Below are positions 255-8,335 of a stretch of 10,245 nt of DNA, piece by piece; position 1 is the first letter of the stretch; every line of letters begins with the position of its first letter. The position numbers and the translations under genes are program-made. Below the pieces are notes generated by a model. The model saw only the letters and a list, made by a program, of their open reading frames with translations, ran no database searches and had not been told where the DNA came from. Source of the stretch: Pirellulaceae bacterium (lineage in GTDB: Bacteria > Planctomycetota > Planctomycetia > Pirellulales > Pirellulaceae); contig JADLDX010000703.1 of NCBI GenBank assembly GCA_020846515.1, positions 1 to 10,245 on the forward strand, given 5' to 3'.

Positions 255-2129
255 ATGGATCCTCGCCTGCTGGACTATTACAATCGCGAACTACTCTACA
301 TTCGCGAGATGGGTGGCGAATTCGCCAAAGAATTTCCGAAGATCGCCGGGCGTTTGGGGCTGGATTCGTTTGAATGCGCTGATCCCTATGTGGAACGACT
401 CCTGGAAGGCTTTGCCTTCATGGCCGCCCGGGTCCATCTGAAACTGGAATCGGAGTTTCCAAAGTTTACCGATCATCTCATGGAGATGATCTATCCACAC
501 TATCTGGCGCCAACACCGTCGATGGCGGTGGTACAGTTCGAACCCGATCTGCAGGAAGGCAGTCTACTGAAAGGCTTCACACTGCCGCGCGGTACGTCGA
601 TTCATAGTCTGATGGGGCCTGGCGACCAGACCAAATGTCAGTACCGCACATCGCAAGATGTCACGCTGTGGCCGTTGACCATCAAGCATGCCAGTTACTC
701 TAGTCGCGATGTGGTGGCCTCGCGTCTACCCAGTCGCTTTCAGGACGCCAAATCGATCTTGCACTTGCGGTTGGCTGTACCGAAAGTCAACACGTTTCGT
801 GAACTACCCATCGATCGACTGCCCATTTTTCTACGCGGTCGTGACTCACGCTCCATGTTGCTCTACGAACAATTGTTCGCTGATGTCAGTAGCATGATCG
901 TCATGTGGGAGGGACAAACGTCGCCCGTGGTCTTGGATAACGCTGTAGGGCCTATGGGCTTCGAGGACGATCAGGCTCTCTTGCCCACTGGTCCACAGTC
1001 GTTCAAAGGCTATCGGCTGCTCAACGAGTATTTTGCGTTTTACCAGCGATTCATGTTTGTCGAATTCATCGGACTGCAAAAAGCATTTTCGCGTTGCCCA
1101 ACCAATGAAGTCGATTTAATTTTGCCGCTACGCCGTTCGCACGCGCGTTTGGAGAACATCGTCGACTTGGAAAACTTTGCGCTGAACTGTTCGCCAGCGA
1201 TCAATTTGTTTCCGCACATGGCCGATCGAATTCATCTGAACGAGTCTGAGGTGGAGTACCATATCGTTCCCGATCGCACGCGCCCCATGGACTACGAAGT
1301 CTATTCGGTTCAGGGCGTGCAAGGCTTCGACGCTAGTTCCGAGGCAGGGCAGTCCTTCCGACCATTTTACGCCATTGAGGACGCGGATCTGGCCGGTTCA
1401 ACACGCGAAACTGGTTACTACTCCACGCGACGAGCGCCTCGCCAGCTATCAGCCAAACAACGCCGCAAAGGCCCGCGCAGCAGCTATATCGGTAGCGAAG
1501 TTTATCTGTCGATCGTCGATCCTGCCAACGCGCCGTACAGTCCCTCGTTGTCCCAGTTGAATCTAAAGCTGTTGTGTACCAATCGCGATTTGCCGCTTTC
1601 CATGCCTGTCGGCAAACTGAATACCGATTTCACTCTCGAGACTGGTGCGCCGGTCAAATCCATTCGTTGCCTGGCAGGTCCGACAGAGCCAACACCTTCG
1701 TTTGCGACTCTGCCTGGTGATCGCAGTTGGCGACTGATAAGTCATTTGGCACTCAATTATCTATCGATCATCGACAGCGATAACAATGGGGCGGCCACGC
1801 TGCGCGAAATGTTGATGTTGTACGAAGATGTTTATGCCACGGGCAACACGCGCGAAACCGAAGGTGTCGTTTCGGTCGCGTCGCGTTCGATCATTCATCG
1901 ACTATCGCGACGTGGACCGTTGGCATTCGGCCGTGGGGTCGAGATTACATTGACGTGCGATGAGTCGAAGTTCGATGGAGCCAGTGCGTTTCTATTGGCC
2001 TCAGTGCTCTCGGACTTCTTCAGCAAGTATGTTTCGATCAATTCGTTTACTCAGACTGTTCTGCGAACCTTGGACCGCGGTGAGGTAATGCGATGGCCGA
2101 TCAACGTCGGACGCAGACAGATTCTCTAG
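255..2129 (+). CDS. tssF: T6SS baseplate subunit TssF (VasA/ImpG family)
   Basis: The 624-residue product has the full length expected for TssF, the largest protein of the T6SS baseplate wedge (TssE-TssF2-TssG). The wedge docks on the membrane complex and surrounds the VgrG spike. The N-terminus is classic: YYNRELLYIREMGGEFA near residues 8-23, then KIAGRLGL, DPYVERLLEGFAF (43-55) and a block ending MIYPHYLAPTPS near residue 89. The C-terminus also matches the family, with SINSFTQTVLRT followed by a W-P-x-N-x-G-R-R ending. No signal peptide or membrane helix is evident, as expected for a cytoplasmic protein. The ATG at 255 fits the conserved N-terminus, although only a weak purine tract (AGAG at 241-244) precedes it. 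The last 37 bp overlap tssG, which suggests translational coupling of the two wedge partners. Confidence 0.97.
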   Translation: MDPRLLDYYNRELLYIREMGGEFAKEFPKIAGRLGLDSFECADPYVERLLEGFAFMAARVHLKLESEFPKFTDHLMEMIYPHYLAPTPSMAVVQFEPDLQEGSLLKGFTLPRGTSIHSLMGPGDQTKCQYRTSQDVTLWPLTIKHASYSSRDVVASRLPSRFQDAKSILHLRLAVPKVNTFRELPIDRLPIFLRGRDSRSMLLYEQLFADVSSMIVMWEGQTSPVVLDNAVGPMGFEDDQALLPTGPQSFKGYRLLNEYFAFYQRFMFVEFIGLQKAFSRCPTNEVDLILPLRRSHARLENIVDLENFALNCSPAINLFPHMADRIHLNESEVEYHIVPDRTRPMDYEVYSVQGVQGFDASSEAGQSFRPFYAIEDADLAGSTRETGYYSTRRAPRQLSAKQRRKGPRSSYIGSEVYLSIVDPANAPYSPSLSQLNLKLLCTNRDLPLSMPVGKLNTDFTLETGAPVKSIRCLAGPTEPTPSFATLPGDRSWRLISHLALNYLSIIDSDNNGAATLREMLMLYEDVYATGNTRETEGVVSVASRSIIHRLSRRGPLAFGRGVEITLTCDESKFDGASAFLLASVLSDFFSKYVSINSFTQTVLRTLDRGEVMRWPINVGRRQIL

Positions 2130-3151
2130 AGAAGCTGCGTGCTCTTCAACTTCAACCCTATCGCTATGGTTTTTTTAGCGCTCTGCGCATGCTGGACAGC
2201 ATGTTCCCAGACAGTCCTCGTACGGGCACATCGGATCGGCCTGGCGAGGAAGCGATACGTCTGGGACAGGATCCCAATTTGAAATTCGCGCCGGCACCGC
2301 TGGCAAGTTTTCAGCGTCGAGCGTCAGATGACACCTGGCAACTGAAAACCTATTTCTTAGGTGTATTTGGACCCAATGGGCCCATGCCCACGCACATCAC
2401 GGAGTTCGTGCAGCAGAGAATTCAGCATCAACGCGACCACACGTTTGCACGTTTCGCCGATATTTTTCACCACCGGATGGCCACGTTTTTCTATCGAGCT
2501 TGGGCCGACAGCCAGCCGACCGTACACCTCGATCGACCAGAGTCCGATCGATTTGCCAAGTATATCGGAGCTCTATGTGGATTGGGTATGACCACGACGC
2601 GAGCTCGTGATGCTATGCCTGACCGCGCCAAGCTGTTCTTCGCAGCTCACTTGGCTTGCAATACGCGGCACGCCGACGGTCTGCGGGCGATATTGGAGAA
2701 TTACTTTGGAGCCTCCACGGAAATTGTACCCTTCGTCAGCCACTGGATTCGCCTGCCCGACGACTGTCGGTGGCAACTAGGCCGCGGCGCCTCTGCGGGA
2801 CAATTGGGTGTCAGCACAACCGTAGGTGCCAGAGTCCGCGATTGCCAGCAGCGCTTTCGCATCGTGATCGGACCATTAGATTACCAGTCGTTCGTCAAAT
2901 TGTTGCCACCTGGTGAGAGTCTAAAGCGGCTGCGGTCGATCGTAGATCAATACGTGGGTTTCCAGTTCAGTTGGGTTGTCCAGTTGGTGCTGAAAAAGAC
3001 TGAAGTCAAACACATGCAGTTGGGACGCCAGGGCAGCCTGGGATGGACCACATGGCTGGCCAGTCGCACACCGCCGCAAGACGCCTGCGAGTTAGTCATC
3101 GACCCCATGGCTCCGCGTCGTGGTCCGGTCCGAGCCAAAAAAGGTGCATGA
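2093..3151 (+). CDS. tssG: T6SS baseplate subunit TssG (VasB/ImpH family)
   Basis: The 352-residue product is a full-length TssG, which clamps the TssF dimer in the T6SS baseplate wedge. Recognisable family segments are PYRYGFFSALRML (residues 22-34), FLGVFGPNGPMPTHITEFV (88-106), FADIFHHRMATFFYRAW (121-137), YIGALCGLG (157-165), and a C-terminal LGWTTWL block near residue 320. The tail is basic and proline-containing (PRRGPVRAKKGA). The ATG at 2093 lies inside tssF in another frame and is preceded by GAGGT at 2082-2086, six bases upstream. That spacing supports this start and coupled translation with tssF. No membrane segment is seen. The gene is followed by an unusually long gap (130 bp) before clpV. 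Confidence 0.96.
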   Translation: MADQRRTQTDSLEKLRALQLQPYRYGFFSALRMLDSMFPDSPRTGTSDRPGEEAIRLGQDPNLKFAPAPLASFQRRASDDTWQLKTYFLGVFGPNGPMPTHITEFVQQRIQHQRDHTFARFADIFHHRMATFFYRAWADSQPTVHLDRPESDRFAKYIGALCGLGMTTTRARDAMPDRAKLFFAAHLACNTRHADGLRAILENYFGASTEIVPFVSHWIRLPDDCRWQLGRGASAGQLGVSTTVGARVRDCQQRFRIVIGPLDYQSFVKLLPPGESLKRLRSIVDQYVGFQFSWVVQLVLKKTEVKHMQLGRQGSLGWTTWLASRTPPQDACELVIDPMAPRRGPVRAKKGA

Positions 3152-3281: not shown

Positions 3282-6029
3282 GTGTCCGAAATCAGTCGTC
3301 CTAAACTATTTGGCAAACTTAATGCCCTTGGGTTCAAAGCCATCGAAAGCGCAACCACGTTTTGTAAGTTGCGAGGCAATCCCTACGTCGAGATCGTGCA
3401 CTGGTTCCACCAGATTTTGCAGCTGCAAGATTCCGACATCCATCAAATTATTCGCAAGTTCGAGCTGCAACCCGCTCGACTGGCCAAAGACTTTACCGAC
3501 GCACTCGACCGCTTGCCACGCGGTGCGACCAGTATCTCGGACCTCTCGTCGCACGTCGACGAAGCCGTCGAGCGCGGTTGGTTGTATGCCACATTAATGT
3601 TCGGCGACAATCAAGTTCGCACGGGACACTTGATCGTCGGCTGCTTGAAGACGCCGACACTGCGCAATGCACTGCTGAATATTAGTCGCGAGTTTGAGAA
3701 GGTGAAGCTGGATCAGCTCACGGCGGAATTCGCCAGTATTGTCGGGGCGTCGGTGGAGCAGTCGCTGGAACGCCGCGATGGAGCCGGTGCTGGTGGCGGT
3801 GCGTCGCCCGGTGAAGCCAGCGGCGCGATGCCGGGAGCTAATGGCGACAACGATGCACTCAACCGCTACACGGTTGACCTGACGGAGCAAGCTCGACAAG
3901 GCAAAATCGATCCGATCGTGGGTCGCGATGATGAGATTCGGCAAGTCGTCGATATTCTGATGCGTCGCCGTCAGAACAATCCAATCCTTACTGGTGAAGC
4001 AGGCGTCGGCAAGACGGCCGTGGTCGAAGGTTTTGCCCTGCGCATTGCAGCCGGTGATGTTCCGCCTACCTTGAAGGACGTTTCGCTGCGAGCCTTGGAT
4101 GTCGGCTTGCTGCAAGCCGGGGCGAGTATGAAAGGTGAATTTGAAGAGCGACTGAAGCAGGTCATTCAAGCGGTTCAGTCTTCACAGAAGCCGATTATCC
4201 TGTTTATCGACGAAGCGCATACGCTGGTCGGCGCAGGTGGTGCCGCCGGGACAGGTGATGCTGCCAACTTACTCAAGCCCGCGTTGGCTCGCGGTACGCT
4301 GCGCACGGTCGCGGCGACGACTTGGGCCGAATACAAAAAGCACATCGAAAAAGATCCGGCTCTTACGCGACGATTCCAAGTTGTGCAAGTTGATGAGCCC
4401 AGCGAGGAGAAAGCTATCCTGATGATGCGTGGACTAGCCACTACCTTGGAACGCCATCATCGTGTCCAGATTCTCGACGAAGCCATCGAAGCCGCTGTGC
4501 GTCTGTCACATCGTTATATACCCGCTCGACAACTGCCTGACAAATCGGTGAGCTTGCTGGATACTTCGGCCGCGCGAGTGGCCATCAGTCAGCACGCCGT
4601 ACCGGCTGAAGTCGATGATTGCCGACGGCACATCGAAGCGCTCAAGACCGAACTGGAAATTATCGATCGCGAGAAGGCAGTGGGCGTCGATACTCGTGAG
4701 CGCGAACAATTCGCTCGCGAAAAACTCTTGAGTGAACAAGTGCGTTTAGAGGGTCTTGAGCAGCGTTGGACCAGTGAAAAGAAGTTAGTTGAAGACATCT
4801 TGAAGATTCGCGCCAAGCTTCGCCAAACGACGGGCAAAGTCGAAGGTACTCACAGTCAACTGGAAGCTCGCGCCGACCAGGTCAAAGCCGTGGCCGAACC
4901 GGCTGCGGAGGAAGCTCCCGCCGCCTTAACGGAGCAACAGCGTGAGAAACTGCTGACGCTATTGAAAACGCATCAAACCAAGTTGTCCGAGTTGCAGGGC
5001 GACAACCCGCTCATCCTGCCAACGGTCGACGAACAAGCCGTTGCTTCGGTGGTGGCCGACTGGACAGGTATTCCAGTGGGACGCATGGTGAAGAACGAGA
5101 TTGAAGCGGTGCTTACTCTCGGTGATACACTCAATCGCCGTGTCATTGGTCAACGTCATGCCCTGGACATGATTGCGAAACGCATCGAAACTTCGCGCGC
5201 CAAGCTAGACAATCCCAGCAAACCGATCGGCGTGTTTATGCTGGCGGGGCCCTCGGGTGTGGGCAAGACAGAGACCGCGATGGCGCTGGCCGAGTCGCTC
5301 TATGGTGGTGAGCAGAACATCGTCACCATTAACATGAGCGAGTTTCAGGAAGCGCATACGGTCTCGACACTCAAAGGCGCCCCTCCGGGATATGTTGGCT
5401 ATGGTGAAGGTGGCATCCTTACTGAAGCCGTGCGTCGTAAGCCGTATAGCGTTGTCCTACTGGATGAGGTCGAGAAAGCGCATAGCGACGTGCATGAAAT
5501 CTTCTTTCAGGTCTTTGACAAAGGGATCATGGAAGATGGCGAAGGTCGCTTGATTGACTTCAAGAATACGCTGATCCTGTTGACGACCAACGTCGGCAGC
5601 GATTTGATCATGAATCTGTGCAAAGATCCGGAACTAATGCCCAGTCCCGAGGGCATAGCCAAAGCGCTTCGCGAACCTTTGTTGAAGGTCTTTCCAGCGG
5701 CCCTGCTGGGCCGCATTGTAACCATCCCTTATTATCCGTTGAGCGATGAAATGGTGGCCAACATCTGTCGGCTGCAACTGAGCCGCATCGAGAAGCGGAT
5801 CGCAGCCAATCACAAACTGCCTTTTGTATTCGATGATGACGTGGTGCAACTGATTGTCGATCGCTGCACGGAGCTGGAAAGCGGTGGTCGTATGATCGAC
5901 GCCATTCTGACCAACACATTATTGCCCGCAATCAGCCGCGAGATGTTGACTCGCTTAATGAGCGGAAACAAAATGTCGCAAGTACGGGTCAGCGTCAATG
6001 ATGGTGAGTTTACGTACTTATTTGATTAG
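3282..6029 (+). CDS. tssH: T6SS sheath-recycling AAA+ ATPase ClpV/TssH
   Basis: ClpV is a hexameric Clp/Hsp100 ATPase that extracts and unfolds TssC from contracted sheaths so that TssB/TssC can be reused. The 915-residue product shows every expected part. An N-terminal Clp repeat domain (about 8-155) is followed by a Gly/Ala-rich linker (165-188). AAA-1 has Walker A GEAGVGKT (238-245), Walker B ILFIDE (306-311) and LTRRF (361-365). A charged helical middle domain covers about 440-570. AAA-2 has Walker A GPSGVGKT (656-663), pore loop GYVGYGEGG (703-711), Walker B VVLLDE (724-729) and sensor-2 GGRMIDAIL (868-876). The first pore loop reads [11 protein letters not shown], the form seen in ClpV rather than the aromatic KYRGEFEER of ClpB. 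Together with the tssF-tssG context this identifies TssH and not a general disaggregase. The start is GTG at 3282 with AAAAGGA upstream. Confidence 0.98.
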
Positions 6030-6064: not shown

Positions 6065-7126
6065 ATGAAGGTGCCTCGAATCATGGGTAAGAAAGATGCG
6101 AGCATCGCAATTCGCGCAGAGTGGCTGGACGTTCAGAAACTGGTTGGTCCGGCGGCTCTGGCGGTAGTGGATGCTCAAACGTTGGAGCTGGATTTTGAAG
6201 TGGTGGTTCCCAAGGAGTACGTCCGCGATGAACCGCCAGAGTTTGAAGTACGCAAAAGTGCAGAGCTGAAAAAGCTGCGTACTGCTATGGAATCCAAGCT
6301 CGTCGAAACCTTTGAGCTGGTGATGCGTTGTCAGGCAGAAGATAAAGCTGGCGATGACGGTGCCTTTGACGAGGCGAAGAAAGCGCTGGACGCACTCAAC
6401 AGTTTTTTAGAACGCAGCATCGAACAGATTCGTCCGGCGGCTCGCGCCGCGATCGGTAATTTGGTGGGTGCGAAACCGGACCAATTACAAACGTTTGGTC
6501 GCATCGACTTTGAGAAGTACGAGATCCGGGCGGGCGTCTTTGAGCATGAGGTCAGCGTCGACACCGCTATGCTGGATCTGAGTAAAGCTGTCAAACGCAA
6601 AAAATGGCAAGAATGTGGCGTGGCGTGGAAGGCGGATGGTTGCGTGATCTCCGTGAAGCCTAAAAAGGAGTTCAAGGACGCTGAGCTGAAGGAGCTGCGG
6701 TCTGCCTTACCTGAGGGACTGGACCGCGGGGCACGTATGGTTGGGGGGCGATTCAAGGCTGAATCGGCGACCAACGTTGTTTTCGAATTCACTACGGGAG
6801 ATGAAGTGCCGCGCACACGGTTGTTGCGGCAAGCCATGAAAGCCCAAACGGGCTCAGCCGTAAATGTCAGCCGCACATTTGCCGAGCGCGATAAAAAGGC
6901 CAATCAAGACGATCCGGCAAAAGGCTCGGATGCCAAGTCCTCGAGTCAGGCCACAAAAAAAGGCCAGGCTAAAGCGGTCGTAACTCCAGCACCAACCAAG
7001 GGAAAAAAGGCATCACCCAAAGAGACGCCGGCGCCGAAGGGTAGCCAATCGTCGCCCAAGGTGGCCAAAACATCCCCCAAGGTTCCTCAGCCGTCCCCGA
7101 AGGCTACCAAGAAAAAAACCAATTAG
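6065..7126 (+). CDS. Uncharacterised protein with lysine-rich SPK-repeat tail, T6SS-linked
   Basis: I do not recognise this 353-residue family. Residues 1-275 look like a soluble mixed alpha/beta protein with no signal peptide or membrane helix. A helical stretch (about 98-135) contains ALDALNSFLERSIEQIRPAARAAIGNLVG. The segments AELKKLRTAM (66-75) and AELKELRSAL (206-215) agree at 7 of 10 positions, a hint of internal duplication. From about residue 277 the protein changes to a low-complexity tail rich in Lys, Ser, Pro and Ala, with Ser-Pro-Lys motifs at 317, 330, 337 and 344, like histone H1 or other nucleic-acid-binding tails. The gene starts 35 bp after clpV and 31 bp before the channel gene, so co-transcription is likely. 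Two starts are possible: ATG 6065 and in-frame ATG 6083. The latter has AAGGTG (6068-6073) nine bases upstream and may be the true start, giving 347 residues. Function is unknown; chaperone, adaptor, effector or DNA-binding accessory roles are all guesses. Confidence 0.82.
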   Translation: MKVPRIMGKKDASIAIRAEWLDVQKLVGPAALAVVDAQTLELDFEVVVPKEYVRDEPPEFEVRKSAELKKLRTAMESKLVETFELVMRCQAEDKAGDDGAFDEAKKALDALNSFLERSIEQIRPAARAAIGNLVGAKPDQLQTFGRIDFEKYEIRAGVFEHEVSVDTAMLDLSKAVKRKKWQECGVAWKADGCVISVKPKKEFKDAELKELRSALPEGLDRGARMVGGRFKAESATNVVFEFTTGDEVPRTRLLRQAMKAQTGSAVNVSRTFAERDKKANQDDPAKGSDAKSSSQATKKGQAKAVVTPAPTKGKKASPKETPAPKGSQSSPKVAKTSPKVPQPSPKATKKKTN

Positions 7127-7157: not shown

Positions 7158-8114
7158 GTGGTTGATTTATGTTATCAGATTACGCGTTCCCAGTGGTTCG
7201 GCCGGTTCATCATCTCGCTAATCGCGATTTCTGGTTTACTGGCCGGCCTTGAGACGTATCCACAGTGGTCGGAAGGTACGTCGGCAGGGGCGGTCCTTCA
7301 AATCGGGCAAAATATTATTTTGACCGTCTTCGTCATCGAGATCGCGATGAAAATTATTGCCTGCGGTTCTTCGCCATGGAAATTTTTCCAAGAGCCGTGG
7401 AACCTCTTTGATTTCATCATCGTGGTTATCTGCCTGCTGCCGATCGATATGCATTCGGCCAGTGTGGTACGTATGGCCAGAATTCTTCGCGCTATGCGGA
7501 TGATTACTGTGCTGCCTCGACTGCGTCTGTTGGTGGCGGCGTTGTTGAAATCCATTCCATCGTTGGGATATATCGGCGTCTTGCTGGGACTGCATTTCTA
7601 TATCTACTCAGTCATCGGTACGATCACTTTTGGTAAGAACGATCCGCTGCGTTTTGGCACCCTGCATTCGACAGCTGGTACGCTCTTTCAAGTCTTGACG
7701 CTCGAAGGTTGGAACGATGTCCGGGACACTCAGATGTTGGGATCGGATGTCACCTATGATGATGCATGGAAAGTCTTGAGCGAGGGGCAGCGTGTATCGG
7801 AGGCACAGCCCGTGGCCACGACGATCTACTTTATGTCCTTCATTCTGCTGGGCACGATGATCATGCTCAACCTGTTTACAGGTGTCATCATCAGTAGCAT
7901 GGAGGAAGCCCAGCAGGAGGACCATGCTAACCGAAACGAGCAACTGTCCCAGCGTGGTTTCTTGACCATGCACGATGAACTTCGACTGGTCAGCTCGCAA
8001 TTGCAGGAACTGGCCGGCCAAATGGCTAAACTGCAGGAGCGAGCCGCAGCGCTTAATCTGCCGTCCAGCCCGCCACCGCCCGATTCGCCGCAGGATCTGA
8101 AAGAATCGTATTAG
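7158..8114 (+). CDS. Voltage-gated cation channel, bacterial Nav/Cav family, TLEGWND filter
   Basis: The 318-residue product is a single-domain six-helix channel subunit that would assemble as a tetramer in the inner membrane, as in NaChBac and NavAb. Approximate segments are S1 14-32, S2 46-70, S3 81-97 (WNLFDFIIVV), S4 101-120 with arginines every third residue at 105, 108, 111 and 114, S5 130-158, pore helix 170-180, selectivity filter TLEGWND (181-187) and S6 219-248 (IMLNLFTGVIISSMEEAQ). A charged helix (about 250-298) suits the C-terminal coiled-coil bundle of this family. NavAb has TLESWSM in the filter; the engineered calcium channel CavAb has TLDDWSD. Gly at filter position 4 and Asp at position 7 therefore favour calcium or mixed permeation over pure sodium, which is an inference. 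About 31 residues separate filter and S6, longer than in NaChBac. The gene starts with GTG, follows the SPK-tail gene by 31 bp, and is followed at once by a terminator. Channel assignment is very secure; ion preference is not. Confidence 0.95.
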   Translation: MVDLCYQITRSQWFGRFIISLIAISGLLAGLETYPQWSEGTSAGAVLQIGQNIILTVFVIEIAMKIIACGSSPWKFFQEPWNLFDFIIVVICLLPIDMHSASVVRMARILRAMRMITVLPRLRLLVAALLKSIPSLGYIGVLLGLHFYIYSVIGTITFGKNDPLRFGTLHSTAGTLFQVLTLEGWNDVRDTQMLGSDVTYDDAWKVLSEGQRVSEAQPVATTIYFMSFILLGTMIMLNLFTGVIISSMEEAQQEDHANRNEQLSQRGFLTMHDELRLVSSQLQELAGQMAKLQERAAALNLPSSPPPPDSPQDLKESY

Positions 8115-8126
8115 TTCCGCTGCTGC
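8111..8126 (+). repeat. Fragment of the REP-like module overlapping the channel stop codon
   Basis: TTAGTTCCGCTGCTGC differs at one position from the same segment of the first full module (8313-8328, TTAGTCCCGCTGCTGC). Its TAG is the stop codon of the channel gene (8112-8114). The matching GCAGCG arm is missing, so this looks like a broken module end rather than a full hairpin. Confidence 0.55.
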
Positions 8127-8131
8127 AATTA

Positions 8132-8151
8132 ACCCTCCCTTTAGGGAGGGT
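8132..8151 (+). other. Stem-loop ACCCTCCC/GGGAGGGT
   Basis: A perfect 8-bp stem (8132-8139 with 8144-8151) closes a TTTA loop 17 bases after the channel stop codon. It is not followed by a T run, so it is more likely a 3'-end-stabilising or REP-type hairpin than a terminator by itself. Its arms match the CCCTCCC/GGGAGGG arms of the repeats downstream, so it may be a reduced copy of the same palindrome. Confidence 0.6.
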
Positions 8152-8153
8152 CG

Positions 8154-8183
8154 AAAAACAGGCGCTACTGCAGCCTGTTTTTT
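8154..8183 (+). terminator. Rho-independent terminator, apparently bidirectional
   Basis: AAAAACAGGC (8154-8163) pairs perfectly with GCCTGTTTTT (8173-8182) around a nine-base loop, and a sixth T follows. Read on the plus strand it is a GC-containing stem ending in TTTTTT, about 40 bp after the channel gene. Read on the minus strand the A run becomes a T run, so the same structure can stop the convergent transcript from the 8501-9517 gene. It probably marks the end of the T6SS-channel transcription unit. Confidence 0.8.
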
Positions 8184-8335
8184 CGGGGAGGGTGCGTGCG
8201 CCGCACGGACGAGTCGGCAGCTGCGAGATGCGAGCCTTGGTTAGTCGTTAGAGGCCCCCTCCCCGACTGAGCTGCCGCCAGTCGACCCTCCCGCTGCTAC
8301 GCAGCGGGAGGGTTAGTCCCGCTGCTGCGCAGCGT
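8184..8335 (+). repeat. REP-like palindromic module, copy 1 (152 bp)
   Basis: This is the first of two tandem near-identical units. It contains, in order, an outer inverted repeat TCGGGGAGGG (8183-8192) with CCCTCCCCGA (8257-8266), a small GTGCG/CGCAC hairpin (8192-8206), CGACTG/CAGTCG (8264-8269 with 8279-8284), a perfect 13-bp hairpin ACCCTCCCGCTGC/GCAGCGGGAGGGT (8285-8297 with 8301-8313, loop TAC), and a terminal hairpin CGCTGC/GCAGCG (8320-8325 with 8329-8334). No coding capacity is apparent. It lies between convergent genes, the usual place for repetitive extragenic palindromes. Genome-wide copy number is unknown from this window. Confidence 0.85.

Follow-up and report, generated by a model that had tools for sequence, protein, structure and literature searches.

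What does a bacterial voltage-gated channel with the filter T-L-E-G-W-N-D conduct, and why should its gene close a run of type VI secretion system (T6SS) genes? Both questions are raised by the window, the whole stretch of 10,245 nucleotides analysed here, which is one entire contig of a Pirellulaceae bacterium (source assembly 6.48 Mb, 81% complete). On its plus strand tssE, tssF, tssG, clpV, ORF353 and the channel gene follow one another in the same direction, the channel ending the T6SS run 31 bases after ORF353, whose matches in two other genomes adjoin ClpV (33% in G463, 27% in G472). On the minus strand, 3′ of the channel, lie a gene that we call the partner and then the end of a GT41 gene (Table 1). 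Channel and partner converge, and the two inverted repeats that separate them are likely a terminator; a terminator consensus scan did not report them.

Table 1. Features of the window, with coordinates counted from its first nucleotide.
Feature	Position	Strand	Evidence
TssE, 5′ part lost at contig start	4..228	+	PF04965; TIGR03357 below its own cut-off
TssF	255..2129	+	PF05947, 757.6 bits
TssG	2093..3151	+	PF06996; TIGR03347, 341.9 bits
ClpB/ClpV-type AAA+ ATPase; TssH/ClpV name from context	3282..6029	+	AAA_2, AAA_lid_9, ClpB_D2-small
ORF353, function-unassigned protein 3′ of the ClpV gene	6065..7126	+	without hydrophobic segment
Voltage-gated cation channel subunit, 318 aa, S1-S6, GTG start	7158..8114	+	PF00520 (Ion_trans), 157.6 bits; BacNav alignment
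S4 voltage-sensor core, R105 to R114, four arginines spaced by three	7470..7499	+	alignment
Selectivity filter T-L-E-G-W-N-D, residues 181-187	7698..7718	+	ORF translation, homologue alignment
Long filter-S6 loop	7719..7811	+	alignment with NavAb/NaChBac/NavMs
S6 pore-lining helix, invariant N238	7812..7892	+	hydropathy; homologue alignment
Two inverted repeats between convergent channel and partner genes, likely terminator	8115..8200	.	by eye
Partner protein, 338 aa	8501..9517	-	no Pfam or NCBIfam match, no hydrophobic segment found
GT41-type glycosyltransferase, C-terminal part, cut at contig end	9584..10243	-	PF13844

The original prediction had placed the filter at 7698..7718 in a protein with a full S1-S6 layout and a four-arginine S4, and both readings are borne out. 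The codons acg ctc gaa ggt tgg aac gat encode T181-L-E-G-W-N-D187 at exactly that position in the ORF 7158-8114, the Pfam Ion_trans domain spans residues 12-254, and in the alignment with NavAb the arginines R105, R108, R111 and R114 fall on R99, R102, R105 and R108, while the charge-transfer residues of the voltage sensor, F58, E61 and D85, fall on F56, E59 and D80. Out of 8,000 candidates scored, 1,624 matched at E 0.001 or better, and conservation was assessed over the best 120 of these; the species-named homologues are Pirellula sp. and Pirellulaceae. The four S4 arginines, F58/E61/D85, the filter residues T-L-E-G-W-N and the S6 asparagine N238 are identical in 120/120 of this set, and filter position 7 is Asp in 117/120 and Glu in 3/120. 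With 1,624 matches the channel belongs to a large family and is thus no lone oddity; its filter is under strong constraint and no chance string, and the fact that every gating charge is kept points to genuine voltage sensing. Between filter and S6 the channel has 21 residues more than NavAb, NaChBac and NavMs, and the alignment gives a likewise long loop (+17 residues against the same three) for the channel of Meiothermus taiwanensis. A scan of viral contigs found no relative, and an NCBIfam match of the channel to T6SS_Burk_ExIF (E 0.32) was dismissed as noise.

For selectivity we relied on published work, taken from excerpts of three papers (PMC7041947, PMC10120453 and PMC8002053). CavMr of Meiothermus ruber has the filter TLEGWVD, as the original prediction had stated, Gly4 included, and a PCa/PNa of 218 (PMC7041947, Table 1). 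Gly4 is the measured determinant of this Ca2+ selectivity, the ratio dropping to 11.9 in G4S and still being 144 in D7M (PMC7041947). NavPp of Plesiocystis pacifica, with TLEDWTD, prefers sodium (PCa/PNa 0.31), and its D4G mutant, with the filter TLEGWTD, reaches 41.4 at a PK/PNa of 0.81 (PMC7041947). Because of these mutant values it is Gly4, not Asp7, that argues for calcium; of the calcium logic originally proposed for the filter the Gly4 part thus stands and the Asp7 part does not, and CavAb, which had been invoked as an analogue, is assigned a selectivity mechanism different from CavMr's by the same authors (PMC7041947). A non-polar residue at position 6 is needed for full CavMr selectivity, and V6T, which also gives TLEGWTD, lowers the ratio from 218 to 40.1, K+ now passing at a PK/PNa of 0.69 (PMC7041947); position 6 can thus be said to set the tightness of selectivity. 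All five Gly4 filters tabulated there prefer Ca2+ over Na+ (218, 215, 144, 40 and 41), and the CavMr filter is also that of domain I in Cav3.1/3.2 (PMC7041947).

Throughout the best 120 of the 1,624 matches (120/120) the window channel's Gly4 is present, as in CavMr-like Cavs, and position 6 is a polar Asn, unlike the non-polar residue of CavMr. Asn6 is also found in human Cav3.2, whose domain II filter has Trp-Asn behind an acidic pair. Both position 6 and the T6SS setting were overlooked in the earlier reading. No permeability value for an Asn6 filter was found in the literature looked at; by analogy, we would forecast a tens-fold preference for Ca2+ over Na+ with incomplete exclusion of K+, because the nearest measured filter, TLEGWTD, gives a PCa/PNa of about 40 in two scaffolds. 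With its polar Asn6 this backbone could also yield a sodium or non-selective channel, poorly selective like CavMr G4S or NavPp. TLEGWTD does admit K+ (PK/PNa 0.69-0.81) and NavPp stands at 0.31 (PMC7041947), charged filter residues alone no longer predict selectivity (PMC8002053), and the tree described below is compatible with the BacNavs as sisters. We nevertheless judge this unlikely, since every tabulated Gly4 filter favours Ca2+ (PMC7041947) and Spafford's scheme classes one-domain Gly4 filters as calcium-selective (PMC10120453).

Natural prokaryotic calcium channels had been described as rare, which fails for this filter type: an exact TLEGWVD pattern scan of named genomes returned 52 stretches, and 41 of them contain an ORF that has TLEGWVD and matches the channel profile, across ten named phyla and one unassigned record. 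Three more (L036, L053 and L058) contain TLEGWVD channel fragments. TLEGWVD channels also occur on two archaeal contigs, L071 (Nitrososphaeraceae archaeon) and, as a fragment, L058 (Nitrososphaera sp.), and two alphaproteobacterial stretches, L038 and L050, each hold two tandem TLEGWVD channel genes, which the quick tree places on the side of NavAb.

To place the family we built two trees, a quick one with 74 rows and a careful one with 65, the latter including 10 of the 120 family proteins and two rows from alphaproteobacteria. Meiothermus channels, that of M. taiwanensis among them, stand in for CavMr, and planctomycete TLEDWTD channels for NavPp. The careful tree and the AU tests were run without 8 long-branch or fragment rows (L071, L048, L043, L028, L039, L029, L030 and L078), the quick tree without L029 and L030, and the identity comparison without L001, L005, L031, L069, L053, L060 and rows below 85 bits. 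In the careful tree a single planctomycete clade (100/99) unites the TLEGWND proteins; it is joined at 99/98 by planctomycete channels with TLEGWVN or TLEGWID, and the TLEDWTD planctomycete channels form neighbouring branches. NaChBac, NavCt, NavAb and NavMs, together with the two alphaproteobacterial TLEGWVD channels, form a separate clade (100/98), and a placement of the family beside NaChBac/NavCt is rejected (AU p 0.027). The phylogenetic check that the original prediction had called for thus puts the TLEGWND family outside the canonical BacNavs. The planctomycete clade groups with Meiothermus to the exclusion of the BacNavs at 84/96, and the quick tree has the BacNavs beside the planctomycete channels and Meiothermus outside. 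A firm kinship with CavMr over the BacNavs was therefore dropped, as the AU tests leave the BacNavs as possible sisters, whether in a clade with the family and its Gly4 sisters (p 0.419) or with all planctomycete rows (p 0.429). Since TLEGWVD is found on the side of NavAb too, filters with Gly4 are spread over at least two regions of the tree, having arisen or persisted on that side as well. The window channel has the single-domain S1-S6 Ion_trans architecture, the charged S4, the non-TLESW (Gly4) filter and the position outside the Bacillus and NavAb-like groups that mark ancestor-like BacNavs (AnclNavs); it has neither the TLESW filter of canonical BacNavs nor a place in the NaChBac/NavAb clade.

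Turning to the T6SS setting, we compared 15 channel genomes of the order, our own included (E 1e-60 or better; the source draws overlap). Their filters are TLEGWND (G000, the own genome, G012, G629, G825, G800, G883 and G472), TLEGWVN (G050 and G454), TLEDWTD (G041, G731, G849, G808 and G817) and TLEEWTA (G463). Six of the 15 have T6SS genes no more than 6 kb from the channel: tssF, tssG and clpV in the own genome; VgrG, with a DUF6931 protein, in G629 and G825; a TssB-TssC fusion in G472; a TssB-TssC fusion, ClpV, an ORF353 homologue and TssK in G463, with DotU/TssL at 7 kb; and VgrG in G808. The sole VgrG match of G629, a single-contig genome, is 3.8 kb from the channel, and the one match each of G825 and G808 is at 3.8 and 0.3 kb. 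With the own genome excluded, 5/14 loci are T6SS-linked compared to 0.13 expected by random placement (P ~1e-7), an estimate that uses TssF, VgrG and VipB matches, treats genomes as independent and was computed after the linkage had been seen. Because the genomes are related such chance estimates are too small, and with G629/G825 and G472/G463 being same-genus pairs the true linkage figure is less extreme.

The linkage is far above chance but not general. In 9/15 loci a tblastn search with the query set, covering about 8-10 kb on each side or up to the contig end, found no T6SS gene, and G849, G817 and G731 have no TssF, VgrG or VipB match genome-wide. Among 60 genomes of relatives, the own counted, 15 have a channel match at E 0.001 or better and 4 at E 1e-70 or better (own, G012, G050 and G041); as TssF is found in 27/60 and such close channels in 4/60, most T6SSs do without the channel. 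Chance adjacency, suggested by a first T6SS check in which TssF proved common, was reversed by the flanks of the other loci. No Ca2+-sensing protein turned up in those neighbours that were put through Pfam. Beside the channel, both L102 (7779-9797) and L093 (1916-3682) have TssB and TssC matches within one ORF; 11/12 channel genomes with a VipB match carry a second, low-scoring one (E 1e-55 to 1e-20), the fusion having been checked in L102 and L093. On L092 a minus-strand gene (1-1642), which adjoins VgrG and a DUF6931 protein, encodes one apparent hydrophobic stretch by eye, shows no Pfam or NCBIfam match and has relatives on L109 (54%) and L113 (25%).

These loci could simply house a general-role Ca2+/Na+ channel, serving ion homeostasis or voltage signalling, whose gene hitch-hikes with the T6SS with no functional tie. 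TLEGWND channels whose surroundings, as far as read, hold no T6SS genes (G012, G800 and G883) and the spread of TLEGWVD channels over ten named phyla speak for this account. In our view it is somewhat unlikely, since 5 of the 14 remaining loci have T6SS genes at 6 kb or less where random placement would give 0.13, and the partner weighs in the same direction.

The partner adjoins the channel in 6/15 channel genomes of the order, on the same strand in G012, G629 and G825, divergently in G472 and G463 and convergently in the window. A search with the single sequence finds it in 5/396 genomes, with the channel directly beside it in all five, and G825 is the sixth; the adjacency was independently confirmed in 5/6 genomes, all but G825. 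A profile search finds the partner in 7/396 genomes, 5 of them with an adjacent channel. The extra matches, in G582 and G756, come without a channel on the sequence that was read, and the pairing is thus not absolute: the first is a short partner-like gene (L126 9337-9819, minus strand) inside a tssEFG-clpV-TssBC locus, and the second a weak profile match in the C-terminal part of a 1212-aa ORF (L125 5599-9237). As the G463 channel falls on the TLEDWTD side, the channel-partner pairing spans two channel clades. Counted without the own genome, the single sequence finds the partner in 4/395 genomes, each of them one of the 8 channel genomes, and the more sensitive profile in 6/395, 4 of them among those 8; together with genes that are rearranged and yet still adjacent across genera, these counts argue against a general-role channel with no tie to its surroundings.

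A protein profile search gives 13 partner members, the window's own included, of which three seem to lie on the same contigs as listed channels, with which they agree in source and in the length of the longest contig (P0132/P0017, 10,749; P0133/P0020, 15,942; P0134/P0027, 3,534). The partner family, undescribed so far and tied to T6SS loci, has a conserved domain at its N terminus that in most members reads NIQ..LF...Y...W...F...H..FR..PN..F.L...E.R.A...A. The first ~90 residues of the partner match PADLOC PDC-M02B weakly (best E 1e-6), which makes a link to defence a lead, although the literature listed for it offered nothing of use; PDB profile matches to de novo Ig designs (E 4e-5) were dismissed as low-information. 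A TPR protein that resembles or carries GT41 lies near partner and channel in G012, G463, G629 and G825, the Pfam GT41 model passing only in G012 and G463 of these four.

G629, G825 and G808 have VgrG genes close by, and the channel might be thought of as T6SS cargo, a pore for rival membranes with the partner as its adaptor, in the manner of Tse4/Tse5; pore-forming and even voltage-sensitive T6SS effectors are known (excerpts of PMC12169545 and PMC9637101). We find this very improbable. A six-segment channel with all gating charges in 120/120 homologues (best 120 of 1,624) exceeds what a toxin pore needs, close channels are also found away from T6SS genes, and the partner, the most constant neighbour, is no typical membrane immunity protein because it has no hydrophobic segment.

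The reading that we prefer, at a probability of roughly 40%, is that of a Ca2+-preferring, depolarisation-activated resident channel that is tied to the T6SS in some planctomycetes. It draws on the identity of filter and sensor in 120/120 (best 120 of 1,624), apart from Asp or Glu at position 7; on the separate clade (100/99), with NaChBac/NavCt placement rejected at p 0.027; on the extended filter-S6 loop, shared with the Meiothermus channel and lacking in the three BacNavs; on the published Gly4 values, which favour Ca2+ (PMC7041947); and on T6SS genes within 6 kb and an adjoining partner, each in 6/15. Counting against it are the polar Asn6, given that polar Thr6 costs selectivity, and NavPp, a sodium channel assigned to the same group (both PMC7041947), as well as a tree that leaves the BacNavs as possible sisters, the 9/15 channel loci with no T6SS gene in the stretch read, the many T6SSs that do without the channel and the lack of a Ca2+-sensing protein among the neighbours scanned.

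For the preferred resident channel we propose the following course of events. The ORF would encode one subunit of a homotetramer that, judging by homology, opens on depolarisation and works like the AnclNavs CavMr and NavPp. Its Gly4 filter would prefer Ca2+ over Na+, with weaker K+ exclusion than in CavMr. In a fair proportion of the carrier genomes T6SS loci would have taken up the channel; depolarisation or envelope damage would open it and let Ca2+ enter, and the adjacent soluble partner may relay a signal to the T6SS. Counter-attack by a T6SS after membrane damage follows a known logic, which makes a depolarisation-and-Ca2+ trigger plausible. In its strongest form, which we regard as doubtful, the T6SS would be electrically gated: a locus-encoded homotetrameric Ca2+ channel would sense the depolarisation that comes with attack or contact, and partner-relayed Ca2+ would trigger or prime firing. 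If true, this would be analogous to Ca2+-triggered secretion in animal cells.

TLEGWND lies between the measured variants TLEGWVD, TLEGWTD and TLEDWTD, and given its conservation a single measurement would probe the influence of position 6 on Ca2+ selectivity in a simple four-fold pore. As to why bacteria keep voltage-gated Ca2+-type channels, the authors of the CavMr study, in the excerpts used here, offered possibilities only, for instance flagellar rotation (PMC7041947); the recurrence of the window channel's family in T6SS loci, beside a partner not described before, provides a concrete and testable answer. In the literature searched we found no mention of a TLEGWND filter, no publication on a BacNav together with a planctomycete and, among the titles listed, nothing on the pairing of a T6SS with a voltage-gated channel, this last absence being weakly tested.

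When set beside known systems, the window channel resembles CavMr as a single-domain six-segment channel with Gly4 and Asp7 in TLEGWxD, and differs from it in having Asn6 and not Val6 (PMC7041947). The long filter-S6 loop, seen in the M. taiwanensis channel, adds to the likeness, whereas an identity to Meiothermus channels of 37-40% and a planctomycete clade of its own set it apart, as the linkage to T6SS and partner may. NavPp shares its filter TLEDWTD with planctomycete relatives that are 38-45% identical to the window protein, and unlike the latter has Asp4 and Thr6, prefers sodium and is blocked by Ca2+ (PMC7041947). With NaChBac, NavAb and NavMs the channel has in common the fold, the four S4 arginines, the acidic residues of the voltage sensor and the S6 asparagine, but these have a TLESW filter, a short P2-S6 loop and a separate clade, at 31-36% identity. 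Eukaryotic Cav domain I filters likewise have Gly4 and an acidic or polar position 7, but belong to four-domain proteins, in which Asn6 was seen only in the domain II filter of Cav3.2. Finally, Tse4 and Tse5, in the partial accounts at hand, are similar in being ion-conducting membrane proteins tied to a T6SS; they are delivered toxins of a different fold, whereas the window channel looks resident.
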